In this document: positions 8,326 to 48,603 of the stretch, one piece after another
How the letters are laid out: every line of letters starts with the position of its first letter
Position numbering within the stretch: position 1 is the first letter of the stretch
Program-made: the position numbers and the translations under genes
Assembly: GCF_000237325.1 (NCBI RefSeq)
Contig: NC_017542.1
Location: forward strand, 3,630,501-3,694,500
Direction of reading: 5' to 3'
DNA: 64,000 bases
Source: Paenibacillus polymyxa M1
Lineage (GTDB): Bacteria; Bacillota; Bacilli; Paenibacillales; Paenibacillaceae
The notes under the pieces: model-generated
The model's input: the letters and a program-made list of their open reading frames with translations, nothing else
What the model was told of the DNA's origin: nothing
The model's database searches: none

Positions 8326-8331
8326 ATATAT

Positions 8332-8545
8332 TATTGAAAAAGACTGTACGGCAGAACTATCTACTGTGCGGATCTTAAATTTTGGGCGTAACAGTTTGTG
8401 TCACCCTCATCTTATTTGTTGCTGACAGGACAGCGGCTGAACTTTTCTGTCAGTAGTGCGTCTCACCTTCTAGGTAGCGCCGAACAAATTGGAGCGCAAA
8501 GAGAGCCCCAACTCAAATTTTAATTATGAAGGAGTTAACTCTATA
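8332..8545 (+). promoter_or_regulatory. Long rpsD mRNA leader, probable S4 autoregulatory site
   Basis: About 200 nt of untranslated leader between the promoter and the rpsD start. It contains complementary segments (for example CTGACAG near 8423 and CTGTCAG near 8446; GCGC elements flanking the ribosome-binding region). In Bacillus, ribosomal protein S4 represses its own mRNA by binding such a leader. The assignment rests on position, length and folding potential, not on a detailed structure match. Confidence 0.55.
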
Positions 8546-9145: not shown

Positions 9146-9162
9146 TCCTTGCATTAGCACCG

Positions 9163-9195
9163 AAAAGCACCCGAATTCATTCGGGTGCTTTTTTT
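9163..9195 (+). terminator. Intrinsic terminator of rpsD
   Basis: AGCACCCGA / TCGGGTGCT stem with ATTCAT loop and seven T. Confidence 0.93.
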
Positions 9196-9224
9196 ATATT
9201 CCCCACGCATTAAGCCTGAGAGTT

Positions 9225-10091: not shown

Positions 10092-10228
10092 ATAATCCTT
10101 CCCCGCACTTGTAATTTATCTAGCCTACATCCACATTGGGTAACCCACGTATTCATTATGTATAACTCTTTACCTACTTGTTTGATTATTTGTGCTAAGT
10201 TTACCACGGCTTTTCACTTGGCAGAAAT

Positions 10229-10274
10229 AAAAAAAGCAGCACTGAGATGTAAAATTAATCTCAACGCTGCTAGT
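10229..10274 (-). terminator. Intrinsic terminator of tyrS
   Basis: On the minus strand GCAGCGTTGAGAT / ATCTCAGTGCTGC with a short AT-rich loop and seven T. Confidence 0.88.
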
Positions 10275-10287
10275 GAATGTATTTTAA

Positions 10288-11541
10288 TTATCCAAGCTTG
10301 ATTTTAGCAAATTTCCGTTTACCCACCTGTACAATGTCGCCTTCTTGCGGCTTGTATGCTTCGTTCACATCAGTCCACTTCTCTTCATTAATTTTAACTG
10401 ACCCCTGCTGAATACTACGCTTGGCCTCACCGTTAGATGCTGCAAAGCCTAGATGAGTCAGCAACTGGATCACACGAATGCCGCCTTCTTCTAACTGATC
10501 AGCTGTCAAAGTGAATTCTTCAATATCGTCAGGAAGCGCACGTTGTTGGAATACGGTCACAAAATGCTGCTTGGCCGCTTCCGCCGCCTCTTCACCGTGG
10601 TACATGCGGACTAATGTTCCGGCCAGTTTCATTTTGGCATCACGTGGATGCACTGAACCCTCCTTAACACCTTTCGCCAGCTCTGCCAGCTCCTCATTGG
10701 TAATATCCGTTGCAAGCTCAAAATATTTCAGCATCAGCTCGTCAGGAACGGACATCGATTTACCGTAAATTTCGTTTGGCTCCTCATCCACACCAATGTA
10801 GTTCCCCAAACTTTTGCTCATCTTCTGAACGCCATCAAGACCCTCAAGCAGTGGTAATGTAATAGTTGCCTGCGGCTCCACTCCGTATTCTTTTTGCAGG
10901 GTTCTGCCCATCAGCAGATTAAACTTTTGATCTGTCCCTCCCAATTCTATATCGCTTTGGAGAGCCACGGAGTCCATGCCCTGCATCAGCGGGTAAAAGA
11001 ACTCATGGATGCTGATTGGCAAGCCGTTTTGGTATCTTTTTGTAAAATCATCCCGCTCCAACATACGGGCAACCGTTACTTTGGCAGACAGGGTTACCAC
11101 ATCCGCAAAAGACATCGGTCCTAACCACTCAGAATTGTAGTATACCTTTGTCTTTTCAGGATCGAGAATCTTAAAAATTTGTTCCTTGTATGTTTGTGCA
11201 TTGCGCTGTACATCTTCCTCAGTCAGTTGCTTGCGGGTCTCCGATTTACCTGTCGGATCACCAATTCTGCCTGTAAAATCTCCGATAATCAGTTGCACTT
11301 GGTGCCCTAATTCCTGGAACTGGCGCAGTTTGTGCATAACAACCGTATGTCCGATGTGAATGTCGGGCGCAGACGGATCCAGACCCAGCTTAATTTTGAG
11401 TGGCTCGCCGCTAACAACCGATTTAACAACCTTACGCTTCAGCTCATCCTCAGGTACAATTTCCGCTACTCCACGACGTATCACTTCTAGTTGTCGTTCT
11501 ACCTCTGCCTGTTGCTCAGGCTTCAATTCTTCCCACTTCAT
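10288..11541 (-). CDS. tyrS: Tyrosyl-tRNA synthetase
   Basis: Class I aminoacyl-tRNA synthetase (417 aa) that charges tRNA-Tyr. The HIGH motif appears as [10 protein letters not shown] and the KMSKS loop as [20 protein letters not shown] [16 protein letters not shown] and [15 protein letters not shown] form the tyrosyl-adenylate site. The C-terminal 70 residues are an S4-type RNA-binding domain ([10 protein letters not shown]). HIGH followed by the RQFQELGHQ pattern places it with the TyrZ/TyrS2-type enzymes rather than the HIGN type of B. subtilis TyrS. GGAGGGATTCAGG precedes the ATG. Expression is under the T-box described separately. Confidence 0.97.
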
Positions 11542-11589
11542 CCTGAATCCCTCCTATTTTTCATCCAAAAATTACTATTTTAACAAACC

Positions 11590-11892
11590 AAAAAGCCCCT
11601 TTCATCCCAAGGGACGAGAAGGAGCTGCTCGCGTTACCACCCTAATTAAAGAAACGTATGCAAAAGCAAACGTTTCTTTCACTTCATTCCTATAACGGGT
11701 CTACACCCGGTACCGGATTACTATGATGAGCTTCGCAAACCTGCAAAAGCCTTCCATTCATCCAGACAGCTCCAGACGGTAATTCAAAGGAGGGACGCTA
11801 CCGATTCACACCACCCATCGGCTCTCTGCACAACGTGATTCCGCCTTCTACTGAAGTCTTTCTCTGCTTTTCACGATATTTACTTTGACCTA
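11590..11892 (-). promoter_or_regulatory. Tyrosine T-box riboswitch leader of tyrS
   Basis: Minus-strand leader with the T-box core AGGGTGGTAACGCG (11630-11643), an AGAGAG element near the 5' end, and a candidate specifier triplet TAC (Tyr) at 11779-11781 inside GAATTACCG. The leader ends with a terminator stem AGCTCC..CGTCCC / GGGATGAAAGGGGCT plus five T (11590-11627). Uncharged tRNA-Tyr would pair with the T-box and specifier and allow read-through into tyrS. The tyrosine triplet agrees with the gene downstream. Confidence 0.93.
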
Positions 11893-11921
11893 TTTATAAC
11901 ACACTGTTTTTATGTAGTCAA
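11893..11921 (-). promoter_or_regulatory. Promoter of the tyrS T-box transcript
   Basis: Minus strand TTGACT (11916-11921), 17-bp spacer, TATAAA (11893-11898), just upstream of the T-box leader. Confidence 0.75.
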
Positions 11922-12008
11922 CGACACCAAAAGACAGGCTTTTTAGCATATGGGTTCATTTTGTAATTTTATGCTATAATAATGGCTGTTATAAAGGAGG
12001 AAGACTTA

Positions 12009-15000
12009 ATGGTTGAAGAAAAAAACAATGTATCAGAGCCAAAGCCTTCCCGCTTACGGAGAACCATGCGAAGGCTCGGCCGTGTCATAAAGTGGGTCGT
12101 CATCATCGGTTTTATGGGAGCACTATTCGCAGGAGGAACCGCCGCCGGCTATATTGCTTCTATTGTAAAAAACGAGCCCGTGCGTTCCAGATCTACGATT
12201 CTACAGGAAGTAGATAAAAATGCAATTACAGGCTTCGCTTATTTCAATGATGGCTCTCCCATCGGGCAGCTTCGGACCGAGGAAGATCGAAGACCTGTTA
12301 CATTTAAGGAGATTCCTCAGCTCGTCATTGACGCAGTCATTGCTATTGAAGATAACCATTTTTACGAGCATAAAGGTGTCGATTTGTCGGGAACGCTGCG
12401 TGCTGTGAAGCAAAAGGCACTACATGAATCCGTACAAACTGGAGGGAGTACTCTTACCCAGCAGCTTGCACGTCGTGTCTTTTTAAATCTTGATCGTACG
12501 GATGACCGCAAGGTCAAAGAAATTTTACTATCTCTGCGCCTGGAGCGCTTCCTGAGTAAGCAGCAAATAATTACAGCCTATCTCAATAAGGTACCTTTCG
12601 GTAACGGATCAAGCGGTTACAACGTCTTTGGTATTAAAGCAGCGGCCAAAGGTATTTTTAATGAGAATGATTTGGGCAAGCTTAATGTAGCCCAAGCTGC
12701 CTATCTGGCAGGTTTGCCACAACTCCCTTCTTCTTATTCTGCTTACAACGGTAAAGGCGAATTTAATGAAGCTGGTTTTAAAAGAGCGATCAACCGCCAG
12801 CACCTGGTGCTCAGCCGAATGCTGGAGGAGAACAAAATCAATAAAGCACAATATGATGAAGCGATGGCTTTTGATATCAAAAAATCTCTCGCACCACGCA
12901 CTGTTAAGGCTTATAACACCTATCCATATCTTATGATGGAAACAGAGCGGCAAGCTGCGCAGGCACTCATGTCTGTCACCAATCCGAGTCAAAAGGCTAA
13001 TGCCAGTGCGGATACCAAAACCAAGGATGATAACGACTTGCTCAAAGAAGCCGAACAGCAGCTTCGCACAGGCGGCTATATGGTATATACCACCATTGAT
13101 AAGAGCGTGTACAAATCTATGCGTCAAATTGCAGAAAATAAGGACAACTTCTCTGCTACTAGTAAAACCAAAGGTGACGAGCAAGCGGCAGCCATTCTGA
13201 TTCAGCATAAAACCGGCGCCATTCTCGGTATGATGGAAGGTCGGGACTTCCAAAAAGAGCAAATGAACTACGCTACCCAGATGGTACGCCAGCCGGGTTC
13301 AGCCATGAAACCGATTGCTGCTTATCTGCCTGCTTTGGACAGCGGTCTCGTACAGCCTGGCACGATTGTGGATGATGCCCCTATTATTTTGAAGGATGGC
13401 AGTAATGGATATCACATCCCGAAAAATTCCAACAACCGCTACCAAGGATTAGTCACAGCGCGTTATGCACTGAATCAATCGCTAAATACGATAGCACTCA
13501 AGCTGTTTAACGAAAAGGTAGGGATCAATAAGGCGTGGGCTTTTGCTAAAAAACTGGGTATTACCACCTTGGAACCAAGCGATAACAACGCCCAAACCGG
13601 TGTACTCGGTGGCTTGGCCCACGGGGTAACCGTTGAGGAGCTCACCAATGCATATGGAGCCATCCCAAATGGCGGTGTGTTTAATGATGCCTACATGATC
13701 GAAAAGATCGTGGATTCGCAAGGCAATATTGTATACAAGCATCAGCCTAATCCCGTGCAAGCCTTCACACCACAAACTGCCTACCTGATGACGGATATGT
13801 TACGTACAGCCGTATCGGAAGGCACAGGCAAACTGGTGAGACGTAACTTTAATCAATCCGGCAAGATTCCGATTGCCGGTAAGACAGGCACTACGCAATC
13901 CTACACCGATGTGTGGTTCGAGGGCTTTACACCTGACGTCACGCTGGGAGTGTGGGTTGGATACAAGCAACCTGTCAATAAGCTTGAAACGAAAGCACAA
14001 AAAGAGCGGGCTCGTCGTCTATGGGCTCTAATCATGAATGAAGTAACGGCTAAAGATTCTCAGTTATTCCAAACGGATAGTTTCAAGAGACCTGACGGTA
14101 TTGTAAGCCGGACAGCATCCGCTTATGGTTCAGACATTTATAACAGTAAATATTTACCCAAAAACAGTGAAAATGGCGTTACCCGTGCGAAATATATTAC
14201 CTATCAGGGTGTAAATTACATTCCACGTGATGGTACGCCAGATGATATGTTGTATGAACGGACCGTTAGAAAACGGGAAAAGCCAATCTCAGAATTGATT
14301 AAAGAGCTTCAGCAAGCCTTTACAGTGATGAGACGGCATAATTCGTTGTCCTACTATCTGCCTCAAGATGCAGATAAAGAAGCTCCTACTCAGATTGATC
14401 CACGCAGGGACGATGGGGCAGCTCCTAACGCTCCATCTAGCGTCAGCGTAAGCTATAGCGACGGCAAGGCCATAATTAGCTTTAGCCCAAGCGGAAACAG
14501 TGATGTTGTAGGTTACCGTCTATATCGTTCTACAGATGGAGGCAGCTTCGAGCGGCTTGGCAAGGTTGTCATGGCTGATGGCTCCAAGGTATTCTCCGAC
14601 AGCCCTGGTGGAAGCAGCGCAAGTTACTATGTGACCGCCGTTGATGTGGGAGGACATGAGTCTGGACCAAGCAGCAAAGCAGACACAGCACCTGTAGTAC
14701 CACCTGCGGATTCTGAGTCACCAGAAGCTCCGGGCGAGGGAGATGAAACAGGTGCGCAGCCTACAGAAGTTCCTACTGCTCCTGAACAGCCCCAAGCTAA
14801 AGCGGCAGGCACGTCCGTAGTGCTCCAATGGAGTGCAGGAAAGCCTGCGGACGCTATAACAGGCTATAACGTATATTACAGTGAAAGCGGTGCGGAGCCT
14901 TTTAAAAACATAGGCTCTACCGCAAACACCAACTTTGAGTATAAACCAGGCCGCAAGCCCAAAGGCTGGTTCCGTGTTACTTCCATGAATACCATGGGGG

Positions 15001-37580: not shown

Positions 37581-37910
37581 CTAGATTATAATAAAAACAG
37601 CTCCATTCTCACTATCAATCTCCGTCGGGTAAGTGGTCACACATCCAGTATCCGGATCTCGCACCTGGCCGGTGGATAGGTCGACTTTCCAGTCATGGAG
37701 CGGACAATGGACTACCGATCCACAGATCATTCCTTCAGATAACCGTCCCCCTTTGTGCGGACAACGGTTCTCAAGCGCACGCACGCTGCCGTCACTAAGG
37801 CGGAATACGGCTATCTCTGTATTTAGAATGCGAACTGTTCTTGCTCCACGTTGGTCAATTTCGTTCAGATCTGCAATCCTGATTCTGCTGGTTATCGTAT
37901 TGCTCTCCAT
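37581..37910 (-). CDS. nirD: Nitrite reductase small subunit (Rieske protein)
   Basis: 109-aa Rieske-fold [2Fe-2S]-type subunit of assimilatory NAD(P)H nitrite reductase. The cluster-ligand boxes are CPHKGGRLSEG and CPLHDWKVDLSTG, both intact, so unlike some NirD proteins it can bind a cluster. Starts 12 bp after nirB and is surely co-transcribed. It completes the six-electron reduction of nitrite to ammonium with NirB. Confidence 0.95.
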   Translation of the reverse strand: MESNTITSRIRIADLNEIDQRGARTVRILNTEIAVFRLSDGSVRALENRCPHKGGRLSEGMICGSVVHCPLHDWKVDLSTGQVRDPDTGCVTTYPTEIDSENGAVFIII

Positions 37911-37922
37911 TTGGTCAGCCCC

Positions 37923-40355
37923 CTATTCCATTACTGCCTTAAGCTCTGGCAGCTGCACAAAATTTTTGCGCAGCTCTTCGTTATGAATGATTTCGTGCCA
38001 CGGATCCGTCGTTGTGCTTAACGTCTCCTCAATTCTGCTTACCAGTTGCTGCCTCATCTCCGCATTTGCTAGTACCTGTTTGATCGAGTCTACGCCTACC
38101 CGTTCTACCCAATGAGCTGTTCGCTCGTTCCAATTCGCCTGCTCACGGTAATACTGTAAATAGGCACCAGTCCATTCCATCACTTCATCCTCGGTTTTTA
38201 CAGTACACAGCAGTTCTGCTGCCCGCACCTTAATACCGCCATTACCTCCAATGTAGATCCCCCAGCCACCATCAATAGCGACAACGCCCAAATCCTTAAT
38301 CGTCGCTTCTGCGCAGTTACGCGGACAGCCCGACACAGCCAGTTTGACTTTGGATGGTGCATTCAGACGCTCGAATGCCTTTTCCAACCGGATGCCCATA
38401 CCCATAGCATCCTGTGTGCCAAAGCGACAAAAGGTGTTTCCAACGCACGTCTTGACCGTTCGCAATGTCTTTCCATATGCATACCCTGACGGCATATCCA
38501 ATTCAGACCAGATTCCCGGTAGATCTTCCTTTTTCACACCAAGCAAGTCGAGACGTTGGCCACCCGTAAATTTAACCAAAGGCACGTTGTATTTCTCCGC
38601 GACAGCGGCAATCTTCTTCAGGTCGGCAGGTGAAGTAACTCCTCCATAAATTCGGGGCACCACAGAGTAGGTACCATCCTTCTGGATATTGGCATGGTAC
38701 CTTTCATTCGTGAATCTGGATTCCTTCTCATCCTCATAATCCAGTGGCCACAGCAGACCTAGATAATAGTTGAGGGCCGGCCGACATTTGGTACACCCTT
38801 CAGGTTCGTTCCAGCCCAGCACGTTCATCACTTCTTTGACGCTCTTCAGCCCCATTTCCCGGATACCATCAATAATCGCTTCCCGATCAAGCGTTGTACA
38901 ACGACATATCCCTTCTTTAATCGGTTCTCCGGTTTCTGCACCTGCGTACAGCTGTAAGAGCCCCTCCACTATTGGCTTACAGCCGCCGCATGATGCCGAT
39001 GCCTTCGTACAGGCCTTAATCTCCCCAAGACTCCTGCAGCCTGCCGCAACCGCCTCTCCAATGTCACCCTTGGATACACCATTACATCCGCATACAATTT
39101 CATCCTCAGGCATCTGCTCCAGCATCATGGTGCCACTACCTTCTGGTTGGCCAGGGTTAAAACCAAGTAACAACTCTTTCTCTCGACCAACCACCGAATC
39201 ACCACTTTTGATCAAAGAAAACAACATGGCTCCATCAGATGTATCCCCAAACAGGACGGCTCCGGTCAGTTTTTCTTCCTTGATGACGATTTTTTTGTAG
39301 ACGCCACCAATATCATCCTGATACCGCAGAGATCGCGTTTCTGGCTCATCCTTGTAATTGCCTGCTGAAAACACATCGACGCCCGATACCTTCAACCTTG
39401 TCGAAGTAACGGAACCACTGTAGCCGGGAGTCTCCATTCCCGCGAGTCGCTGAGCAAGGACACCCCCCTGCTCATATAATGGGGCAACCAGACCGTAAGT
39501 GATTCCCCGGTGTTCTGCACATTCTCCAACGGCGTATATGCCAGGAATGTTCGTTTCCATGTTATCATTTACGATGATGCCACGGTTTACGGGAATTCCC
39601 GCCGAAACCGCCAGTTCAATATCTGGTTTGATACCTACCGCCATAACGATCAAATCCGCTTCCAGTTCGCTTCCATCAGCAAACTTCAGCCCTTCCACGC
39701 GACGACGCCCGGTGATAGCCGCCGTCCGCTTATTGACCAGAAAAGTCATTCCCTGTTCCTCCAGCTCGCGCCGTAACATAAGGGAAGCTGCCTCATCCAG
39801 CTGTCGGTCCATAATATATCCATTGAGATGAATAACTGTAACGTCCATCCCCAAATTAAGCAGCCCCCTGGCTGCCTCTAGCCCAAGCAATCCGCCGCCG
39901 ATAACGGCTGCTTTTTTGTGCGTCTTCGCAGTCTCTATCATCGTCTCGCAGTCACGGATATCCCGGAAACCAATCACACCATCCTTGTCGGCTCCTGGAA
40001 GCGGCAGGATGAAAGCTTTAGAACCTGTTGCCAACAACAGTAAATCATAAGAGACGCATACACCGGATCGTGAAGTCACCTGCCGATTTTCCGTATCGAT
40101 AGCTGTGACAGGATCATCGGTATACAATCGGATATTATTCTCTTCATACCAACTCCAATCGTTGATGATAATATCCTGCAAACCTGCTCCTCCAGCCAGA
40201 ACAGAGGACAGCATGATCCGATTATAGTTGGGATGGGGCTCGGCCCCAAATACCGTAATCTCATAAGCACCTGGTGCGATCTTCAGCAAATGTTCGAGAG
40301 TGCGTATCCCCGCCATTCCGTTGCCGACCAGCACTAATTTTTGGATGTAGTTCAT
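37923..40355 (-). CDS. nirB: Nitrite reductase [NAD(P)H] large subunit
   Basis: 810-aa multidomain enzyme. Domains: FAD/NAD(P)-binding reductase (1-300; GNGMAGIRTLEHLLK, VIGGGLLGLEAARGL), NirB-type C-terminal dimer part (about 320-390), a BFD-like [2Fe-2S] domain (CGCNGVSKGDI...CGGCKP), a second cysteine set (CRCTTLD...CTKCRP), ferredoxin-like half domain, and the siroheme/[4Fe-4S] domain with TFCRFGTQD and SGCPRNCAEATIKDLG. All cofactor cysteines are present. Transcription starts from the promoter at 40514-40542 and must pass the ANTAR-type leader terminator. Forms an operon with nirD. Confidence 0.97.
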   Translation of the reverse strand: MNYIQKLVLVGNGMAGIRTLEHLLKIAPGAYEITVFGAEPHPNYNRIMLSSVLAGGAGLQDIIINDWSWYEENNIRLYTDDPVTAIDTENRQVTSRSGVCVSYDLLLLATGSKAFILPLPGADKDGVIGFRDIRDCETMIETAKTHKKAAVIGGGLLGLEAARGLLNLGMDVTVIHLNGYIMDRQLDEAASLMLRRELEEQGMTFLVNKRTAAITGRRRVEGLKFADGSELEADLIVMAVGIKPDIELAVSAGIPVNRGIIVNDNMETNIPGIYAVGECAEHRGITYGLVAPLYEQGGVLAQRLAGMETPGYSGSVTSTRLKVSGVDVFSAGNYKDEPETRSLRYQDDIGGVYKKIVIKEEKLTGAVLFGDTSDGAMLFSLIKSGDSVVGREKELLLGFNPGQPEGSGTMMLEQMPEDEIVCGCNGVSKGDIGEAVAAGCRSLGEIKACTKASASCGGCKPIVEGLLQLYAGAETGEPIKEGICRCTTLDREAIIDGIREMGLKSVKEVMNVLGWNEPEGCTKCRPALNYYLGLLWPLDYEDEKESRFTNERYHANIQKDGTYSVVPRIYGGVTSPADLKKIAAVAEKYNVPLVKFTGGQRLDLLGVKKEDLPGIWSELDMPSGYAYGKTLRTVKTCVGNTFCRFGTQDAMGMGIRLEKAFERLNAPSKVKLAVSGCPRNCAEATIKDLGVVAIDGGWGIYIGGNGGIKVRAAELLCTVKTEDEVMEWTGAYLQYYREQANWNERTAHWVERVGVDSIKQVLANAEMRQQLVSRIEETLSTTTDPWHEIIHNEELRKNFVQLPELKAVME

Positions 40356-40391
40356 TAGGTCACTCCCTCTCCATTTCTATCCTTAAAACAT

Positions 40392-40449
40392 AAAAAGCCT
40401 GCTTCACATACGGGGATGAAAAATATCCCTCCACATGTAAAAACAGGCT
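40392..40449 (-). terminator. Regulated terminator in the nirBD leader
   Basis: Minus strand AGCCTGTTTTTACAT / ATGTGAAGCAGGCT hairpin with an inner GGGAT/ATCCC stem and T5, located 40 bp before the nirB start. Its 5' arm AGCC overlaps hairpin P2, so the two cannot form together. Confidence 0.8.
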
Positions 40450-40483
40450 CCATTGCCGTTTCATCGAATACGCCGTTGTATCC
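40446..40483 (-). promoter_or_regulatory. ANTAR-type tandem hexaloop hairpins, nirBD leader
   Basis: P1 is GGATAC-[AACGGC]-GTATTC at 40466-40483, P2 is GGC-[AATGGA]-GCC at 40446-40457, eight bases apart. Both loops are six bases with A at position 1 and G at position 4, the known signature of ANTAR-protein targets. Binding would favour P2 over the downstream terminator. Confidence 0.78.
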
Positions 40484-40513
40484 ATCAGAGTATGAATTTA
40501 AAGTACTGTAGCC

Positions 40514-40553
40514 AATATATAACGATTCAAATCACATGTCAATATTCCTTACG
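40514..40553 (-). promoter_or_regulatory. nirB promoter with GlnR/TnrA-like box
   Basis: Minus strand TTGACA (40537-40542), 17-bp spacer, TATATT (40514-40519). The box CGTAA-N7-TGACA (40537-40553) differs from TGTNAN7TNACA at one position and includes the -35 hexamer. Confidence 0.65.
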
Positions 40554-40798
40554 CATTATCTTATAAAAAATTATATTTTATCACTAAGTAACATATCCAT
40601 GACGTATAAAATATCACTCTTCTGCAAAATTAGGATTGATTTTCAGTCCAAAACACGCCAAAATGGTTTAAAAGTCTGTTTCTACTTCATTATGATGGAA
40701 AAGTAAAACCATCTCGCAAAGTTCTATGTCACATTTCTTATCAAGACATACAATCCTCATGCTTATTTACCCTTGAGTTAAAGAGAGGAGGAGCCCGC

Positions 40799-41401
40799 TT
40801 GCGTTCCTTGTTGGTAATCCACTTACACGCTGACCCTGCATCCGAGCAGGCAAACGCCATTCCCTCATGGCAGGCAGGACCTGAGCACCTTTTAGAATCC
40901 AACGGATACCTACCTTTGCCCTGCCGCAATGAATCTGAAATCAAACAGCTCATCCATAATGCAGATGCGGCAGTACTTAACATACCTGTCGGCACAATCA
41001 GCATGTGGAGCAGCAGGTTAGAGCAAACCAAAGCAATTCCGTTGCTCTGGTGGTGCAGCCCGATATCAGCGCTGTCATCGACGGAGGCTTGCGAAGCAGA
41101 TGTGATTGTCGACGGTATTCTAACCCCTTCCATGGCAGCTCATGAACTGAATTGGGCTCTTCATTTTAGCGCCAAACACTTTTTTGAACGCCAGCATTGG
41201 CAAAGTGAACGCAAACAACTGACCGCTCGGCTGGAAGAACGCAAATGGATTGATATGGCGAAGGGGATACTTGGCGAAGTAAACGGCATCCCGGAAGCGG
41301 AGGCATATGATCTACTGCGTAAAAAAGCGATGAATGAACGCAAACGAATCGTTGATGTGGCCATCTCCATTGTGAAAGCACAGCAAATGCTAAAAGCATA
41401 A
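40799..41401 (+). CDS. ANTAR-domain RNA-binding antiterminator (NasT/NasR-like)
   Basis: 200-aa regulator. Residues 144-198 are an ANTAR domain (RLEERKWIDMAKGILGE, AYDLLRKKAMNERKRIVDVA), a three-helix RNA-binding module that binds paired hexaloop hairpins and prevents termination. Residues 1-125 look like a decayed receiver domain: the strand that should end in the phospho-acceptor Asp reads AAVLNIP with Asn61 instead, and the acidic pair after strand 1 is missing, so phosphorylation control is unlikely. A coiled linker (FERQHWQSERKQLTARLEE) joins the two. Start is TTG with GGAGGAG upstream. Its targets are evidently the three hairpin leaders of nirBD, nasBC and nasA around it. Followed 19 bp later by the TrpD2-type gene. 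Confidence 0.88.
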   Translation: MRSLLVIHLHADPASEQANAIPSWQAGPEHLLESNGYLPLPCRNESEIKQLIHNADAAVLNIPVGTISMWSSRLEQTKAIPLLWWCSPISALSSTEACEADVIVDGILTPSMAAHELNWALHFSAKHFFERQHWQSERKQLTARLEERKWIDMAKGILGEVNGIPEAEAYDLLRKKAMNERKRIVDVAISIVKAQQMLKA

Positions 41402-41420
41402 ATCTGAAAGGGGCCTGAAC

Positions 41421-42494
41421 ATGAATATCATTGAAATATTAAAAGAAGTTGGGCGCGGCAAAAGAGGCGCCCGTGATCTGAACTACGCCGAAGCCGAAGC
41501 TGCCGCCGAACTGATTATGACCCGGTCGGCAACCCCTGCTCAAATCGGAGCCTTCTTTGCCGCGGAACGCATCAAAATGGAGAGTGTTGACGAGCTGGAA
41601 GCATTCGTTAATGTCTGTCGTAAATATTCCCACCACTTTCCCATGGAGGAAGGCATTGATTTCGCTGGTCCGTACGACGGTAGAAAGTCATCATTTATTG
41701 CCACCTTCGCAACTGCCTTTCTGCTTTCCTCCTACGGAATACCTGTAACGATGCATGGCAGTGCACCTCTCCCTCCCAAATGGGGGGTTACACTCCCACT
41801 TTTGTTGCAGGAGATGGGGGTAGCAACTGCGGACATAACACACGAAACCGCCATTCATGCTGCGAAGCAGACAGGCGTGCTTTTCGTCGTTTCCGAACAA
41901 TGGTGCCCGCCCCTGCGAGATCTGCGGCCTATTCGCGAAGAGTTGGGGCTTCGCACAGTACTGAACACAGCCGAGAAACTAGTTGATTACGGTTCTTCCC
42001 CGTACATTGTATTCGGCGTTTTCCACAACACCGTATTCGACAAGACGGCGAAAGTTATGCAGAATCTGAATTATCGCAGGGCTTTGATCATTCAGGGGAG
42101 CGAAGGATCGGAGGACCTGTTCATTGATCGACCGACCCGGACTTACCTGTTTGCTAACGGTGAAGTGTCTCTCCAGGTTATAGATCCCGAAATGTACGGG
42201 CTGGATTCGGTAGTACCAGAACACAACTGGACCCCCGCTGAACAACTGCGCATATCAGAGGAAGTGCTGCAAGGTACAGCTCCTACTGCCTTCTCGAATC
42301 AAGTGTTGCTCAACGGCGCGGTCCGACTGTTCGTTGCAGGGCGAGTAGACTCCATTGAGGAAGGCTTATATACCTGCAAACCACTGCTTGAAAACGGGGA
42401 AGCCTGGGATTTGTACTGCCGTTGGCGTGAAGCTATGTTGAGAAAAGAAATAAAAACGGGAGTCGGCACATCCGAAACCCGTTCGTATTTATAA
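41421..42494 (+). CDS. TrpD2-type (anthranilate phosphoribosyltransferase-like) protein
   Basis: 357-aa protein of the TrpD2/YbiB family, which shares the nucleoside-phosphorylase/TrpD fold but is not the tryptophan enzyme. Visible: LNYAEAEAAAELIMTRSATPAQIGAFFAAERIKMESVDELEAFV (N-terminal helical domain), FAGPYDGRKSSFIATFATAFLLSSYGIPVTMHGS, and VFGVFHNTVFDKTAKVMQNLNYRRALIIQGSEGSEDL. The PRPP-binding motif GTGGD of true TrpD is replaced by GPYDGR. E. coli YbiB is a dimer that binds nucleic acids. Here it is in an operon with the ANTAR antiterminator inside the nitrate cluster, which suggests a regulatory job in nitrate assimilation. Good ribosome-binding site (AAAGGGG). Confidence 0.88.
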   Translation: MNIIEILKEVGRGKRGARDLNYAEAEAAAELIMTRSATPAQIGAFFAAERIKMESVDELEAFVNVCRKYSHHFPMEEGIDFAGPYDGRKSSFIATFATAFLLSSYGIPVTMHGSAPLPPKWGVTLPLLLQEMGVATADITHETAIHAAKQTGVLFVVSEQWCPPLRDLRPIREELGLRTVLNTAEKLVDYGSSPYIVFGVFHNTVFDKTAKVMQNLNYRRALIIQGSEGSEDLFIDRPTRTYLFANGEVSLQVIDPEMYGLDSVVPEHNWTPAEQLRISEEVLQGTAPTAFSNQVLLNGAVRLFVAGRVDSIEEGLYTCKPLLENGEAWDLYCRWREAMLRKEIKTGVGTSETRSYL

Positions 42495-42517
42495 TATCGG
42501 TCTTATACAGTCGTGCT

Positions 42518-44698
42518 CTAGAATTGAGACCACTCCCCATTATGTCCACTGGTCGCAGATACAGCTAGGCGAAGGGGACGGATGCGTACAGCAGCCGTTT
42601 TAAAGCCAGGCATCCGGCAGAACGGATCAAGGTCGGGGCGGGTCGCCCGATTTACATTTTGCGCCCCGCCCCAATGCATAGGTACGAAAAGCGTATCTTC
42701 GCGAATATGCGGCCTGATCCGGCTGCGGACAGTAAAGCTACCGCGCTGGGATACTATTTCTACCCACTCCCCGTCCTTGATATACCAGCGCTGTGCTGTA
42801 CGCGGATGAATTTCTACATAATTCTCAATCTCACGCGCGGCCAGCGAAGGACTTCTGCGTGTTTGTGCGCCGGTCAAATAGTGAGCCAGCACGCGGCCAT
42901 TCGTCAAAGTAAGCGGGTATTCCTCGGATATTTCCTCTCCTGCTCCACAGCTTTCAACCACTGTAAAAACAGCCCTTCGGTCGGAAAGAGCAAAGCTTTC
43001 CCGAAACATCGTATCCATACCAGCTTCATCCGTAGATGGGCATGGCCAATATACTCCTTCCTCGCGACGCAGCCTGTCATAAGTGATCCCGTAATAATCA
43101 GCAACCCCTCCCCGGCTAGCGAGGCGCAGTTCTTCAAAGATATCCTCTGTATCCTTATACGCGAAATATCCACCCTTGTTCAGTCTTGAAGCTATCTGGC
43201 ATAAAATGCTCCAGTCATCTCTAGCTTCGCCCGGTGCAATCCGCACCGCTTCCCGCAGCAAAACGCGGCCTTCTAGATTAGTCATCGTCCCCGTATTCTC
43301 CAAATAAGACGTCACAGGCAAAACAACGTCGGCCATTCGCGCCGTTTCAGTGAGAAACATATCCGCCACAATCAACAAATCCAGCTTTTTCAGCGCCTCC
43401 TCGACCAACCGGGCATTCGGGTTAGATACAACAGGATTAGAGCCCATCACGAACAGAGCTTGGATTTCTCTCTGATGAACCAGTTCCATCATTTCATAGG
43501 CCGACACTCCTTTTCCCGGCAAACTGCTTGGTTCAACTCCCCACACGGACGCAACATAGGCTCGATCTTCTTCATTCTCAATCGATCTGTAGCCAGGAAG
43601 CTGGTCAGCCTTTTGACCGTGCTCTCGTCCCCCTTGCCCGTTTCCCTGACCTGTGATGGCCCCATACCCACACCCTTCTCTTCCAATCTTTCCGGTGGCC
43701 AGCACAAGATTAAGAAATGCACGCACTGCCATGTGCCCATCCGTCTGCTGTTCGACACCCCTGGCAGTAAAAACGATACCCGTTTCCACACTGCCAAAGG
43801 CACGCGCTGCCTGCCGGATCATCTCTGCCTCGACTCCGCACAGCGCAGCTGATTCGTTCAGATCCACCCCATCCAAATGAGTCAACAACTGTTCATACCC
43901 GTTGGTCCGCTTGCGGATAAATTCTTCATTTACCAATCCCTCATCCACGATGACCTTTAGCATGGCATTGGCCAGCACAGCATCCGTACCCGGTCTGATT
44001 TGCAGGTGCAGATCGGCTATTGCCGCTGTGGGTGTCGCGCGCGGGTCAATTACGATGACAAACGCACCATTTTCCTTCGCTTGGTGAAAATAAGGCATTA
44101 ACGTCGGCTGACATTCAGCGATATTCGTACCTGCAAGCACAATACAACGAGCTAACGGAATATCAGCCAGCCTGCAGGTCAGTCCGCGGTCAATACCAAA
44201 CACTTTGCTGCCAGCAGATGCTGCTGCCGACATGCAAAAGCGCCCGTTATAATCGATATAGCGCGTGCCAATAGCCACCCGCGCAAATTTCCCGAGTAAA
44301 TAAGCCGTTTCATTCGATAGCGAGCCTCCGCCGTAAATGCCGATTCCGTCAGGGCCCTGCGTGGACAGCAGCGAAGAGAAACTGCTACCTACAGCATCCA
44401 TCGCTTCCCCCCATTGAACGGGAACAAGCTTGCCCTCTTTGCGCAGTAGGGGCTGTGTCAGCCTTTCTGCATGAGTTGCATGCTGATGCGCATTCATACC
44501 CTTGATGCATAACCTACCTTGTGAGGCTGCGTTAGATTTGCCTTCCGCTTTATACACCGTTCGAATGATACCCGCGAGTGTCTCCGTTTCCGTACTAACG
44601 GTCATCTTACATTGCACGCTGCAAAATGGGCATTGTGTCTCCACCACAGGGAGGATGAATTGACCGACTTCCAGTTTGTTTTCTCCTGACTGACACAT
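42518..44698 (-). CDS. nasC: Assimilatory nitrate reductase, catalytic subunit
   Basis: Molybdopterin-guanine-dinucleotide enzyme (726 aa) that reduces nitrate to nitrite in the cytoplasm. The N-terminal [4Fe-4S] ligands are CPFCSVQC and GRLCIKG; Mo-bis-MGD segments include GTNIAECQPTLMPYFHQA, VIDPRATPTAAIADLHLQIRPGTDAVLANAML, GYGAITGQGNGQGGREHG and the C-terminal LTNGRVLAHYLTGAQTRRSP. No twin-arginine signal, as expected for the assimilatory type. The ATG at 44698 follows GAAGGTGA. It lies 70-80 bp after nasB, its electron-transfer partner, on the same transcript. Confidence 0.95.
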   Translation of the reverse strand: MCQSGENKLEVGQFILPVVETQCPFCSVQCKMTVSTETETLAGIIRTVYKAEGKSNAASQGRLCIKGMNAHQHATHAERLTQPLLRKEGKLVPVQWGEAMDAVGSSFSSLLSTQGPDGIGIYGGGSLSNETAYLLGKFARVAIGTRYIDYNGRFCMSAAASAGSKVFGIDRGLTCRLADIPLARCIVLAGTNIAECQPTLMPYFHQAKENGAFVIVIDPRATPTAAIADLHLQIRPGTDAVLANAMLKVIVDEGLVNEEFIRKRTNGYEQLLTHLDGVDLNESAALCGVEAEMIRQAARAFGSVETGIVFTARGVEQQTDGHMAVRAFLNLVLATGKIGREGCGYGAITGQGNGQGGREHGQKADQLPGYRSIENEEDRAYVASVWGVEPSSLPGKGVSAYEMMELVHQREIQALFVMGSNPVVSNPNARLVEEALKKLDLLIVADMFLTETARMADVVLPVTSYLENTGTMTNLEGRVLLREAVRIAPGEARDDWSILCQIASRLNKGGYFAYKDTEDIFEELRLASRGGVADYYGITYDRLRREEGVYWPCPSTDEAGMDTMFRESFALSDRRAVFTVVESCGAGEEISEEYPLTLTNGRVLAHYLTGAQTRRSPSLAAREIENYVEIHPRTAQRWYIKDGEWVEIVSQRGSFTVRSRIRPHIREDTLFVPMHWGGAQNVNRATRPDLDPFCRMPGFKTAAVRIRPLRLAVSATSGHNGEWSQF

Positions 44699-44777
44699 AA
44701 AAGTCACCTTCTCTCTCCATTCGCTGCAATGTTACTGTCCTCGCACACGTATCTATCACTACAACTCCCACAATCCG

Positions 44778-46952
44778 TTAACCTGTCAGCATGGTGGACC
44801 GCAGACTACCGGTCAGTTCACTTCGCAGAGTAGCGTCGAGCACACTTTCCCGCAGCGCCAGAACGCCAGTCCGTTCAATCCATTCCCACATTTTCTCCCC
44901 ATACCTAGCACTATGCCTGTATATTTGCAAGCAGGTTACAGCCATCAGCACTACTTCTTCTGGATTCTCCTCCAATCCAAGCAGCAACCCCTGACGAACC
45001 GGGTGCCCTGCATGCCCACCGGCATAAACCTCCCAACCTGCTGGTGATCGGGATATTCCAATGTCATGGACAAGCACGCCACCGGGATACTCTGAACCCG
45101 GACTGACAGCAACCGCAACTGGTGACGGTAATGAAAGACTGCCCCATACTGCCGCTAGCCGCTCTCTTAGCCAGATCACTCCACCACAAGCCTGATCGAT
45201 CGGGGCAGGATCAACACAATCCCGACGTTCAGCATTCAAATTTGTAAAACTCAGGCCCACAGAACCCACTTCCCCTTCGTACGGTAGGGTGGACTGAACC
45301 GCAACGTCTATTCCCAGTTGGTTTGTTGCAGATCCGTTCCGCAAACCTAGAGATTCCAGATAATAAAGTACAGCTGGACGACATAATTCACACCCCTGCT
45401 GTCTGGTCCAACCAAGACGGGATACTACTTCCTCTGGAGTTCGACAAACTGCGTCCACCATCGCTGTCTTAAGCGAATCATGATCATAATGCGTACAACC
45501 ACACACAGAAACAACTTCTTGAGCAGTCGGAGTTACCACAGGTCCAGAAGCTGTTTCTCGGGACAAACCATTTTTGACCAGTGCAGCCACTAGCGGCCGG
45601 CAGCCTCCGCAGGAACCGGACGCTTTGGTACGGCTCTTCACCTCTTCAACTGTTTTCAACTTATCCGTGGCAATCGCTCGCAAAATATCCCCCTTGCTCA
45701 CACCATTGCATGCGCATACCGTCTCTCCTTCGGGCAATGCTTCCGCAGCATCCTCCGCTTTGCTTTTGCTATTATTCTGGGATGTAAGCTCTGTAGTTGG
45801 CGCGCCGCGCCGTACCATTCCAAGCAGCGAGGTGCTTTCCGCCGTATCTCCAAACAAAATTGCTCCAGTGATATTGCCGGCGCGCATCATCACTTTTTTG
45901 TAAATCTCCTGCATACCGTTATATTCCATGATCGCGATCTCGCTGCCCTCTTCACGAATGTCTCCTGCCGAAAACACATGAATTCCCGCCACCTTGAGCT
46001 GTGCATACGGGACCGTCCCTTCATAGGGAGCCGTTTCACGACCACAAATCACCTTTGCCAGCACTTTGGCCTGCTCATATAGCGGCGCCACCAGCCCATA
46101 TGAAATCCCGCGGTGCTCAGCACATTCGCCAACTGCGTAAATACCAGGAATACTCGTGCGCATATAATCGTCCACGACAATGGCACGGTTTACTGTCAGA
46201 CCACTGTCCTGAGCCAAACCAATATTCGGCCGGATACCAACCGCCAGCACAACCAAGTCCGTTTCCAATCTGTTCCCGTCCGCAAACATCAATCCTTGTG
46301 CCCGGTTGCGACCTATAATGTTGACTGTATCTTTCGCCAAATGAAACCGCATGCCCTGTTGCTCCAACCGTCGTTGTAAAAGTACAGCCGCAGTACGGTC
46401 AAGCTGACGATTCATCAGATACTGCGCATTATGAACAACGTCAGTTTCCATCCCCAGATTCAGCAAGCCTTGAGCAGCCTCAAGCCCCAATAACCCTCCT
46501 CCGATGACAGTGGCCTTGCGGTACGTCTTGGCATATCTCGCCATGGTTTCACAGTCATTTACATCACGAAAAGCAATTACTCCCTCTTTTCGAACTCCGG
46601 GAATGGGTGGCATGAAAGGCAATGAGCCAGTTGCCAGTACGAGAATGTCATAGGGCTCTTGAATACCGGATTCCGTTTCCACCATACCAGTTGCCACATC
46701 AATACGACACACACGTTCACCAGCTTGCAACTTTACCCCATTTTCTTCGTACCAGTCCCAGCTATGGGTAACGATATGTTGGAACGTACTCTCCTCCTGA
46801 AGCATTTTGGACAGGAGCACACGGTTGTATCCGGGCCGCGGTTCAGCACCAAATATTGTGATTTGGAACCGTTCCGGCTCCAGACTGAGAATTTCCTCCA
46901 CACATTTGATGCCTGCCATACCATTACCGATGACGACCAGCCTTTTTATCAT
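44778..46952 (-). CDS. nasB: Nitrate reductase electron-transfer subunit, NirB paralogue with decayed siroheme domain
   Basis: 724-aa flavoprotein that passes electrons from NAD(P)H to NasC. Residues 1-300 are an FAD/NAD(P) reductase (GNGMAGIKCVEEI, VIGGGLLGLEAAQGL), followed by two BFD-type [2Fe-2S] cysteine sets (CACNGVSKGDI..CGGCRP and CGCTHYD..CELCRP). The C-terminal 170 residues still resemble the sirohaem domain of NirB in length and order (VHDIGISRSPAGWEVYAGGHAG), but the four cluster cysteines are lost: where NirB has SGCPRNCAEA this protein has SPGSEYPGGV. It therefore cannot reduce nitrite, matching the NasB role next to nasC. Regulated by the leader at 46992-47058. Confidence 0.92.
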   Translation of the reverse strand: MIKRLVVIGNGMAGIKCVEEILSLEPERFQITIFGAEPRPGYNRVLLSKMLQEESTFQHIVTHSWDWYEENGVKLQAGERVCRIDVATGMVETESGIQEPYDILVLATGSLPFMPPIPGVRKEGVIAFRDVNDCETMARYAKTYRKATVIGGGLLGLEAAQGLLNLGMETDVVHNAQYLMNRQLDRTAAVLLQRRLEQQGMRFHLAKDTVNIIGRNRAQGLMFADGNRLETDLVVLAVGIRPNIGLAQDSGLTVNRAIVVDDYMRTSIPGIYAVGECAEHRGISYGLVAPLYEQAKVLAKVICGRETAPYEGTVPYAQLKVAGIHVFSAGDIREEGSEIAIMEYNGMQEIYKKVMMRAGNITGAILFGDTAESTSLLGMVRRGAPTTELTSQNNSKSKAEDAAEALPEGETVCACNGVSKGDILRAIATDKLKTVEEVKSRTKASGSCGGCRPLVAALVKNGLSRETASGPVVTPTAQEVVSVCGCTHYDHDSLKTAMVDAVCRTPEEVVSRLGWTRQQGCELCRPAVLYYLESLGLRNGSATNQLGIDVAVQSTLPYEGEVGSVGLSFTNLNAERRDCVDPAPIDQACGGVIWLRERLAAVWGSLSLPSPVAVAVSPGSEYPGGVLVHDIGISRSPAGWEVYAGGHAGHPVRQGLLLGLEENPEEVVLMAVTCLQIYRHSARYGEKMWEWIERTGVLALRESVLDATLRSELTGSLRSTMLTG

Positions 46953-46991
46953 AATGAATCCAGCCCCATTCTCCGTACTAAAATAAGACAG

Positions 46992-47023
46992 AAAAAGCCC
47001 TTCTCCATTCGATGGAAAAGGGC
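46992..47023 (-). terminator. Regulated terminator in the nasBC leader
   Basis: Minus strand GCCCTTTTCCAT / ATGGAGAAGGGC with a short CGA loop and T5, a very strong terminator 40 bp before nasB. Its first GCC is also the 3' arm of hairpin P2. Confidence 0.9.
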
Positions 47024-47058
47024 ACCGTTGCCGTTAATGTCGGCACATCGTTGTACCG
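47021..47058 (-). promoter_or_regulatory. ANTAR-type tandem hexaloop hairpins, nasBC leader
   Basis: P1 CGGTAC-[AACGAT]-GTGCCG at 47041-47058 and P2 GGC-[AACGGT]-GCC at 47021-47032, eight bases apart. Both hexaloops have A1 and G4. P2 overlaps the terminator 5' arm. Confidence 0.85.
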
Positions 47059-47069
47059 ATATGTACTTA

Positions 47070-47109
47070 AGATTACTGAATTGTGAGCGTCATGTCAATA
47101 TTCAATACA
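47070..47109 (-). promoter_or_regulatory. nasB promoter with GlnR/TnrA-like box
   Basis: Minus strand TTGACA (47093-47098), 17-bp spacer, weak -10 TAATCT (47070-47075). The box TGTAT-N7-TGACA (47093-47109) has one mismatch to TGTNAN7TNACA and contains the -35. Confidence 0.55.
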
Positions 47110-47154
47110 TGAAACCTGTATTTAAACCTTATTTTAAATTTATTATAATTTTAA

Positions 47155-47194
47155 TGTTATGTATATTGACATATATAGAATGTCTTTTTATAAT
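47155..47194 (+). promoter_or_regulatory. nasA promoter with perfect GlnR/TnrA box
   Basis: TTGACA (47166-47171), 17-bp spacer, TATAAT (47189-47194). TGTTA-N7-TGACA at 47155-47171 matches TGTNAN7TNACA exactly and ends with the -35 hexamer. Confidence 0.8.
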
Positions 47195-47232
47195 TTGAAT
47201 TAAAATCACTACGATGTGATCATATCAAAGCG

Positions 47233-47270
47233 ATGCACAATGAGGTGTGTCAAACACGGCAATGAAGCCG
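47233..47270 (+). promoter_or_regulatory. ANTAR-type tandem hexaloop hairpins, nasA leader
   Basis: P1 ATGCAC-[AATGAG]-GTGTGT at 47233-47250 and P2 CGGC-[AATGAA]-GCCG at 47257-47270. Both loops are hexanucleotides with A1 and G4. P2 shares GCCG with the terminator stem that follows. Confidence 0.85.
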
Positions 47271-47316
47271 CAAAGCGTTTCCCAGATACGATGTCGGGAC
47301 GATTTGCGGTTTTTTT
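47267..47316 (+). terminator. Regulated terminator in the nasA leader
   Basis: CCGCAAAGCGTTTCCC / GGGACGATTTGCGG stem with T7, about 60 bp before the nasA start. Confidence 0.85.
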
Positions 47317-47379
47317 ATGTTCAACAGAAAATTGAGGACTGAGCTCTACAAACCACAATAAGAAGAGGAGAGATCGAGA

Positions 47380-48603
47380 ATGAAGAAAAAAAGTTTCTGG
47401 CAAAGCGGACACAAGCCCACCCTATTGGGCTCCTTTCTGTATTTTGATATTAGCTTTATGATATGGGGAATGATCGGACCGTTGGTCGTTGTCATTGCTA
47501 ATGACTATCCAATGGACCCTGTACAAAAAGCCAACCTTGTCGCTCTCCCAATACTTAGTGGTTCCCTGCTGCGACTCGTGCTTGGATTCATGTCAGATTA
47601 TATCGGTCCGAAGCTCACGGGACAGATCGGTATGCTTGTCACAATTATCCCTCTCCTGCTTGGCTGGCTGTGGGTTGATTCGCTGGAGCAGTTGTACGCT
47701 GTCGCCCTGCTTCTGGGTGTGGCCGGAGCCTCATTTGCAGCTGCACTGCCGTTGGCTGGCCAATGGTACCCCAAAGAGCATCAAGGGCTGGCCATGGGAA
47801 TTGCCGGTGCCGGCAACAGTGGGACCGTCCTCGCAACTTTGTTTGCCAACCGCATTGCCCAACATTTTGGCAGTTGGGAGGTCGTTTTTGGCTTAGCCAT
47901 CATCCCGATTTTCATCGTTTTTGTTCTATTTAGTATTTTTGCCCGCAACAGCCCTCATCGCCCAGCACCAAAAAGTCTTTCACAATATGCTTCGGTGCTC
48001 AAACAGAAAGATGCCTGGGTGTTCTGTGCCTTTTATTGCGTGACGTTCGGCGGGTTCGTTGGCCTTTCAAATTATTTGACCATTTTCTTCAATACCCAAT
48101 ACGGTCTCTCCGCGGTCCATGCTGCTGATTTTGCAACCGTTTGTGTCATTGCCGGAAGTTTCTTTCGCCCTGTAGGCGGCTTTTTGTCCGACCGGATTGG
48201 TGGTTCACGCATGTTAATGTACTTGTATGCCGGGGCCGGGATTATGCTCGCCAGCATTGCATTTTTACCACCCCTTGCCGTGGTCGTAGTCCTGCTGTTC
48301 GTAGGTATGATGTGCCTTGGTGCTGGCAACGGCTCCGTATTCCAGCTCGTGCCGCAGCGATTCGGCAACGAAATCGGGCTCATGACTGGCATCGTCGGTG
48401 CTGCTGGCGGCATAGGCGGGTACTTTCTTCCCCTGATTCTGGGACATCTGTACAAATTAACGGGTTCTTACATGCCAGGCTTCATCTGCCTAAGCCTGAT
48501 CACATTCTGTGCTCTTGTCCTCGTGATCATCATGCAATTGAAATGGCGCAACAGCTGGATGCGACGTTCTGCTCCAGTTGCTAATGAAGCCGTTAGATTT
48601 TAA
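47380..48603 (+). CDS. nasA: Nitrate/nitrite MFS transporter
   Basis: 407-aa twelve-segment transporter of the nitrate/nitrite porter (NarK/NasA) family that takes up nitrate for assimilation. Two nitrate signatures are present: GIAGAGNSGTVLATLFANR in the fifth segment and GIVGAAGGIGGYFLP in the eleventh. MFS loop motifs GFMSDYIGPK and GFLSDRIGGSR are also clear. GGAGAG precedes the ATG. It reads away from nasBC and has its own GlnR-type promoter and ANTAR leader, so uptake and reduction are co-ordinated. Confidence 0.95.
   Translation: MKKKSFWQSGHKPTLLGSFLYFDISFMIWGMIGPLVVVIANDYPMDPVQKANLVALPILSGSLLRLVLGFMSDYIGPKLTGQIGMLVTIIPLLLGWLWVDSLEQLYAVALLLGVAGASFAAALPLAGQWYPKEHQGLAMGIAGAGNSGTVLATLFANRIAQHFGSWEVVFGLAIIPIFIVFVLFSIFARNSPHRPAPKSLSQYASVLKQKDAWVFCAFYCVTFGGFVGLSNYLTIFFNTQYGLSAVHAADFATVCVIAGSFFRPVGGFLSDRIGGSRMLMYLYAGAGIMLASIAFLPPLAVVVVLLFVGMMCLGAGNGSVFQLVPQRFGNEIGLMTGIVGAAGGIGGYFLPLILGHLYKLTGSYMPGFICLSLITFCALVLVIIMQLKWRNSWMRRSAPVANEAVRF

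Follow-up and report, generated by a model that had tools for sequence, protein, structure and literature searches.

ANTAR-type leaders before nirBD, nasBC and nasA of Paenibacillus polymyxa M1 and a TrpD-like gene beside the ANTAR gene

Described ANTAR systems and the nitrate cluster of strain M1

Described regulators with an ANTAR domain include EutV of Enterococcus faecalis, NasR of Klebsiella oxytoca, NasT of Paracoccus and other bacteria, and AmiR of Pseudomonas aeruginosa. ANTAR RNAs were also predicted before genes of nitrate/nitrite transporters and nitrite reductase, and ANTAR regulons were proposed (Ramesh 2012, PMC3369931), so that this kind of regulation is already known. We analyzed a 64,000-nt stretch (the window) of the 6.23-Mb two-contig genome of Paenibacillus polymyxa M1, in which three leaders, upstream of nirBD, nasBC and nasA, present the anatomy of ANTAR-target RNAs. 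It is very probable, in our opinion, that ANTAR antitermination ties these three operons into one nitrate regulon. Among the matches listed from the openly licensed literature, we found no description of such a leader for Paenibacillus.

The EutV/EutW system of E. faecalis shows the same dual leader, i.e., two hairpins (P1 and P2) whose hexaloops carry A at position 1 and G at position 4 (A1/G4), with P2 overlapping a terminator (PMC3369931, PMC8934654). The likeness extends to the ANTAR fold (6ww6 and 6wsh being the closest), to seven conserved RNA-contact residues, and to one protein that would serve several leaders. However, EutV works with a partner, EutW, and its receiver is phosphorylated (Asp54), whereas here the phosphoacceptor position is occupied by H, D, Q or N, no kinase gene is adjacent, and the targets are nitrate genes. 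NasR of K. oxytoca shares with our locus the nitrate assimilation target, the leader antitermination and the ANTAR output domain (PMC7496416, PMC3369931), but it senses nitrate by a fused NIT domain, for which the M1 genome gave no match at E ≤ 0.01, and its described target is one operon instead of three. The NasS-NasT pair comprises, as here, a receiver-like ANTAR protein in a two-gene nitrate assimilation unit (PMC3795266); nevertheless, NasS resembles NrtA and binds nitrate in the cytoplasm, while the putative partner gene in strain M1 is TrpD-like. Finally, AmiR is an ANTAR protein with a pseudo-receiver, and its partner AmiC, which binds a ligand, holds it (1qo0); AmiR is also a fold match of the M1 protein. 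What appears to be new at the present locus is the absence of a known sensor combined with a candidate TrpD-like partner: a strong comparative observation, with a hypothetical function for the partner. The TrpD-like gene, the missing nitrate sensor and the GlnR binding reported for the corresponding P. polymyxa promoters were not part of the original prediction.

Anatomy and conservation of the three leaders

The leaders were located by a motif scan of both strands. The scan looked for two hairpins with A..G.. hexaloops (a minimum of 4 bp in P1 and of 3 bp in P2, loops separated by 10-30 nt) and also demanded that the 3' arm of P2 be part of a terminator stem with a T-run behind it. Exactly three sites were obtained in the 64-kb window, before nirBD, nasBC and nasA. 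The nirB leader (minus strand) consists of P1 at 40465..40484 (loop AACGGC), P2 at 40446..40457 (AATGGA, 3-bp stem), and an intrinsic terminator with its T-run at 40392..40451, which overlaps the 3' arm of P2. The nasB leader, also on the minus strand, presents P1 at 47040..47059 (AACGAT), P2 at 47021..47032 (AACGGT, 3-bp stem), and an intrinsic terminator with a 12-bp stem and a T-run at 46992..47023. On the plus strand, the nasA leader contains P1 at 47232..47251 (AATGAG), P2 at 47257..47270 (AATGAA, 4-bp stem), and an intrinsic terminator with its T-run at 47264..47316. The six A1/G4 hexaloops announced by the original prediction were thus all found in place, as was the double use of the 3' arm of P2 as the 5' arm of the terminator in the three leaders, and the prediction was also right that P2 closes over 3 bp only before nirB and nasB. 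It had further given a spacing of 7-8 nt between the hairpins; this is correct for nirB and nasB (7 nt each) but not for nasA (5 nt), where the gap reaches 8 nt only when four P1 pairs are counted. P1 has 7 bp, counting G-U, in all three cases. Hence, the three leaders possess what is expected of ANTAR targets, namely two A1/G4 hexaloop hairpins, short linkers (7, 7 and 5 nt for nirB, nasB and nasA) and stems of at least 3 bp (7+3, 7+3 and 7+4 bp). For nirB, nasB and nasA, respectively, the computed energies were -4.4, -9.4 and -6.3 kcal/mol for P1, -2.8, -2.8 and -5.2 kcal/mol for P2, and -23.0, -19.1 and -19.5 kcal/mol for the terminators. The terminators being much more stable than P2, termination is the expected default.

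The genes that follow are those of nitrate assimilation. On the minus strand, nirB (37923..40355; TIGR02374, 1026.6 bits, above cut-off) and nirD (37581..37910; TIGR02378, 86.2 bits, above cut-off) encode the large and small subunits of assimilatory nitrite reductase, and nasC (42518..44707; NF047855, 1132.3 bits, above cut-off) encodes the catalytic subunit of assimilatory nitrate reductase. Upstream of nasC sits nasB (44778..46952, minus strand), a NirB-like gene for the probable electron-transfer subunit of the nitrate reductase, named by position and similarity (TIGR02374 match over residues 5-536, Pfam Pyr_redox_2 and Fer2_BFD). The plus-strand nasA (47380..48603) encodes a nitrate/nitrite transporter of the NarK family within the major facilitator superfamily (TIGR00886, 296.5 bits, slightly below the cut-off of 311.7).

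The nirB leader was followed in 80 loci, the best 80 of 223 relatives obtained by searching public genomes with the ANTAR protein alignment. It was present in 79 of the 80. The strict terminator-overlap scan matched 72 of them, with the match before nirB in 71; in the remaining one (L059), the match was present and no NirB match was found at the locus. Among the eight misses, seven carry the hairpins and match R1, a covariance model built from our 84-row leader alignment, at 55-63 bits, although R1 was not built from these seven. In the other (L057:9600-10060, Paenibacillus phocaensis), the start of nirB and the leader are gone between nirB and the ANTAR gene, through either a deletion or an assembly error. 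The original prediction had staked itself on the conservation of the paired loops and of the terminator overlap in related genomes, and both were kept in these relatives.

The leader alignment comprised 84 rows (3 from the window, which are thus part of R1, and 81 from relatives), 72 of them distinct, and 95.4% of its cells were paired, as against only 24-44% in slid controls. Two-sided changes occurred in 6 of the 8 pairs of P1 among the 72 distinct rows, and none of 500 shuffles reached as high a covariation score. The scan that collected the rows required the four inner P1 pairs; the outer pairs, which were not required, covary as well. Similarly, A1 and G4 are invariant across the 84 rows because the scan demands them; R1 still found this pattern in the seven loci that the scan had missed. 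The conserved element is about 45 nt long and comprises both hairpins plus the short linker between them, which is conserved in part.

Could such hairpin pairs arise by chance in terminator-rich intergenic DNA? The 12-nt core of P2 alone is indeed common, with 55 matches in the M1 genome compared to 52 for a control. The full motif, however, was found neither in 40 dinucleotide shuffles of the window nor in 2000 shuffles of the two joined intergenic regions, and it is conserved with covariation. On the basis of the shuffles and the covariation, we rejected this explanation, which is hardly credible.

The promoters of nirB and nasA are the two best of 26 promoter-like sites listed (16.5 expected by chance). 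The nirB promoter (40514..40542, minus strand) is sigma-70-like, TTGACA-17-TATATT, with 11 of 12 positions matching, and overlaps a GlnR-like box (40537-40553, one mismatch); the nasA promoter (47166-47194, plus strand) is a 12 of 12 match of the sigma-70 type and overlaps a GlnR-like box without mismatch (47155-47171). Another box lies upstream of nasB (47093..47109, one mismatch). In P. polymyxa WLY78, GlnR binds at nasA, nasD1 and nasD2EF, and the reported sites differ, by eye, by one base each from the boxes of the window; the nasA-nasD1 spacing is 353 bp in that strain vs. 427 bp between nasB and nasA here (PMC9948412). The word ANTAR does not occur in PMC9948412, and the expression data of the glnR mutant may therefore need re-reading. 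A box with one mismatch (40727-40743) also precedes the ANTAR gene, so that the regulator may itself be under nitrogen control; boxes this lax are found at 35 places in the window.

From these computational results, we infer the following mechanism. The three leaders would be ANTAR-dependent transcription attenuators, and RNA polymerase would start at promoters whose WLY78 counterparts bind GlnR. By default, the strong terminator formed with the 3' arm of P2 would stop transcription. The active ANTAR protein, encoded at 40799, would bind the hexaloop of P1, then that of P2, and keep P2 closed; the terminator would thereby be blocked, and nirBD, nasBC and nasA would be transcribed together. A single ANTAR protein may in this way achieve the nitrate-dependent release of all three operons. 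General nitrogen status would act at initiation through GlnR, and elongation would respond, through the ANTAR protein, to another signal, for which nitrate or nitrite is the most likely candidate. The adjacent TrpD-like protein would be the leading candidate for a partner that restrains the latter. If so, the nitrate circuit of a plant-associated genus has two layers, the promoter being under GlnR and the leader containing an RNA switch for the ANTAR protein.

Genome-wide specificity and reach of the regulon

Across the whole M1 genome, R1 recovered the nirB (57.8 bits), nasA (39.7 bits) and nasB (38.1 bits) leaders. As R1 contains these three leaders, their matches are partly obtained by construction, and the informative part is the absence of others: no further leader was found below E = 3.7 among the 150 of 2899 first-look candidates that were scored. 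Additional leaders elsewhere in the genome were thus rejected, the next R1 match having E = 3.7 and the bare P2 pattern being no better than its control. A second NirB-like gene of the same genome (G000:C1:773843-776242), more distant (58% identity), is without an R1 leader.

A search of family genomes with a covariance model of the leaders had been proposed as a check. Performed with stricter filters on 197 family genomes, it gave R1 matches at E ≤ 0.01 in 119 (here and below, genome sets are those formed by the matches listed). The ANTAR gene was present at E ≤ 1e-30 in 127 of the 197, i.e., 97 genomes of a close group and 30 of a more distant group. The R1 leader was found in 119 of these 127 genomes and in none of the 70 genomes without this ANTAR gene. 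All 127 ANTAR-gene genomes have a NirB match.

Outside the M1 genome, R1 gave 24 secondary matches. Nineteen of them fall in the 17 regions that were examined, with one leader inspected per region, and those of G060, G131, G154, G099 and G075 were left out. Sixteen of the 17 inspected matches precede nitrate genes: nasB-nasC in 7 cases, moeA-nasB-nasC in 6 (L138, L142, L143, L145, L149, L150) and nasA-like transporter genes in 3. In three of the six moeA operons, MoeA was assigned by family search, above the Pfam cut-offs and below the NCBIfam equivalog cut-offs, and in the others by eye. The leader before moeA-nasBC indicates that, in some species, the regulon has come to include a gene of molybdenum-cofactor synthesis. 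Eleven of the 16 leaders are located on a contig other than that of the ANTAR gene, and two lie megabases away from it on the same contig (L141, L147).

Several observations weigh against the regulon that we propose. First, no strong promoter was detected for nasB among the promoter-like sites listed, and in strain WLY78 the expression of nasA and nasD was lower in the wild type than in the glnR mutant under both nitrogen conditions (PMC9948412), so that GlnR acts negatively there. Second, P2 does not vary in the 72 distinct rows and has no covariation support; this invariance is expected, since the same sequence must serve both P2 and the terminator. Third, the co-occurrence of leader and ANTAR gene is imperfect in its details. 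Eight ANTAR-gene genomes gave no R1 match at E ≤ 0.01, including G104 (apparently the strain of L057), which is without the 5' region of nirB, and G002, which has a weak match whose P2 loop starts with G instead of A. Among the 70 genomes without this ANTAR gene, 21 have other, distant ANTAR-like matches, and 41 have a NirB-like match, all of these being weaker among the matches listed (at most 1111 bits vs. at least 1166). Genomes without the ANTAR gene are thus also without close nirB orthologues, and loss of the whole cluster explains part of the co-occurrence. The leaders located far from the ANTAR gene argue against cluster loss as a full account, but 3 of the 16 are only about 6-27 kb from it (L143, L144, L148). 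Lastly, one of the 17 inspected secondary matches was false (L152), and the 80 loci and the family genomes share species and are not independent.

Two variants were encountered in these searches. The leader at L128:9537-9582, in genome G002, has the P2 loop GACGAA and occurs with an ANTAR gene of a second group, described below. In L117 (G160, 9116-9721), an orphan ANTAR gene of this second group, with WWYS for WWCS, lies outside nitrate clusters, in a genome without an R1 match at E ≤ 0.01.

The ANTAR protein and its TrpD-like neighbour

The ANTAR gene (40799..41401, plus strand, TTG start) encodes a protein of 200 aa whose ANTAR domain scores 62.9 bits against a curated Pfam cut-off of 27.3, and it is the sole match to PF03861 in the M1 genome at E ≤ 0.001. 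As originally stated, it lies among the three operons, more precisely between nirB and nasC, where it forms with the TrpD-like gene a plus-strand pair placed between nirBD and nasBC. The AlphaFold2 model (mean predicted local distance difference test score, 90.8) displays a receiver-like domain followed by a long helix and the three-helix bundle of ANTAR, and its closest solved structures are EutV-RNA, EutV, Rv1626 and AmiR. In an alignment of 68 rows (the window protein and 67 relatives), K149, Y170, R174, M178, N179, R181 and R183 are invariant in all rows. According to the alignment to EutV (offset +6), they correspond to K143, Y164, R168, M172, N173, R175 and R177, which are named as RNA-contact residues in PMC8934654; at an eighth position highlighted there, printed as L147 and aligned as Lys, the window protein has Met.

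These residues bear on the idea that a reader other than the ANTAR protein acts on the leaders, which would then be plain attenuators or a riboswitch. An undescribed element is conceivable in that no Rfam family matches the leaders: at the gathering score, the window contained only a T-box and a tRNA, both away from the leaders, and at E ≤ 1 the region 40350-47390 gave only a sub-threshold mir-34 match inside nasC, so that a known Rfam element was ruled out. Yet the dual A1/G4 hexaloops, the invariant RNA-contact residues, the co-occurrence with the ANTAR gene and the small size of the element make another reader very unlikely.

As for the input signal, the phosphoacceptor position 61 (register taken from the predicted strand 57-61) is H in 33 rows, D in 16, Q in 10, N in 6 and another residue in 3 of the 68, i.e., the Asp is not conserved. 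The database name "response regulator" is therefore misleading, and this pseudo-receiver is probably controlled via protein contact or via its own N-terminal domain. A cytoplasmic NasS was not found in the M1 genome, whose single PF13379 protein is a lipoprotein (N-terminus read by eye) that adjoins an ABC ATPase, about 390 kb from the nitrate cluster, and is part of an ABC transporter. Together, the NIT and PF13379 searches ruled out a NasS or NIT partner elsewhere in the genome. The locus offers a sharp case of how an ANTAR protein may be controlled without NIT domain, NasS protein or phosphorylation.

The neighbouring gene (41421..42494, plus strand) encodes a TrpD-like protein of the glycosyltransferase family 3 (357 aa; Pfam Glycos_transf_3, 97.3 bits), the putative partner of the ANTAR protein. 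It is annotated as anthranilate phosphoribosyltransferase, but the full trpD sits in the trp operon, and we rejected a role as tryptophan enzyme. The protein matches six NCBIfam families, among them the trpD family (147.8 bits, cut-off 199.05) and the YbiB family (94.6 bits, cut-off 185), and stays under the cut-off of each (e.g., 177 vs. 287 bits). The GTGG and HGNRS motifs have roles in TrpD; aligned with TrpD of the same genome, the protein has PYDG in place of the former and HGSAP in place of the latter. It adopts the TrpD fold, common to TrpD and TrpD2 (YbiB of Escherichia coli, PMC10123104); true TrpD structures are the nearest by fold, YbiB being absent from the best 50 matches, and they are also the nearest solved relatives by sequence (156 bits, vs. 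65.7 bits over profile positions 4-232 for YbiB). Since these relatives are true TrpD enzymes, we only infer that catalysis is lost in the TrpD-like protein, whose gene looks like that of a retired tryptophan enzyme. Unlike the genes of TrpD and YbiB, it adjoins an ANTAR regulator and is found neither in a trp operon nor with dinG.

This association is strict. Directly 3' of the ANTAR gene, on the same strand and with a gap of 20-98 nt, the TrpD-like gene (more than 160 bits) was found in 96 of the 97 close-group genomes, and its class was never seen apart from the ANTAR gene in the 197 genomes (G124 gave the gene in two pieces). In the 80 loci, the gene is present in 74, absent from 4 and a remnant in 2; it is interrupted in L104 and separated by longer gaps from the ANTAR gene in L073 and L078. 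Only 4 of 299 Bacillota genomes have it at E ≤ 1e-45, all from the same family, which ruled out a wide distribution in this phylum. We also placed the gene on a tree of the ANTAR gene, built by a quick method and rooted at the midpoint. Of its 82 rows, 7 have no TrpD-like gene or just a remnant of one, a pattern that requires 5 changes, at least 4 of them by well-supported branches; the remnants in L040 and L047 and the rarity of absence lead us to read these changes as losses. In the seven corresponding loci, the ANTAR gene and strong leaders (55-63 bits) are all retained.

The loss of the TrpD-like gene while the ANTAR gene and the leaders stay suggests an inhibitory or accessory partner. 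By analogy, the TrpD-like protein may restrain or tune the ANTAR protein as NasS does NasT. The partner AmiC is a small-molecule-binding protein with a fold other than TrpD, whereas the partner proposed for the M1 protein is itself of the TrpD fold. A strain mutated in nasS is constitutive and yet grows (PMC3795266), and a tolerated loss of the partner would fit with this observation. We tentatively suggest, as a possibility on the doubtful side, that the TrpD-fold protein represents a new type of ANTAR partner, which would restrain the ANTAR protein and release it on nitrate, nitrite or another nitrogen signal. If true, Paenibacillaceae would follow the logic of NasS-NasT, the sensor being unrelated and derived from a fold of tryptophan biosynthesis, and a first assignable role would be offered for a protein that databases call anthranilate phosphoribosyltransferase.

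So far, the data are about as compatible with a TrpD-like protein that is accessory and an ANTAR protein that does the sensing. Here, the TrpD-like protein would be a metabolic or nucleic-acid-binding passenger, and the ANTAR protein itself would sense nitrate, nitrite or redox, for example through W84-W85-C86 and C98. The persistence of ANTAR gene and leaders in the seven rows mentioned above is in favor of this, as is the second ANTAR group of the family, which has leaders and nasA directly downstream without a TrpD-like gene; moreover, 67 of the 68 rows retain C86 and 62 retain C98. C98 is, however, missing in all six second-group rows of this alignment, although that group keeps its leaders, and the adjacency of the TrpD-like gene in 96 of 97 genomes, with a class not seen elsewhere, points to a shared function. 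Self-sensing is thus quite plausible, while falling somewhat short of likely. In a third view, antitermination would require the TrpD-like protein, which would take an active part in it, for instance as a co-activator binding RNA jointly with the ANTAR protein. The strict adjacency of the genes and the nucleic acid binding of the distant relative YbiB (PMC10123104) speak for it, but seven loci that retain the ANTAR gene and full leaders without an intact TrpD-like gene are unexpected if this protein is required, and we regard this view as improbable.

Two further elements were noted. The T-box leader of the window (113 bits) lies at 11607-11873 on the minus strand, away from the nitrate cluster. 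Among the relatives, L125 (G048, 6323-13726) is an ethanolamine locus with EutP, a EutV-like ANTAR protein, a kinase, EutA, EutB and an iron alcohol dehydrogenase; in this locus, which served as a positive control, the scan found dual-hexaloop leaders upstream of both eutA and the dehydrogenase gene.

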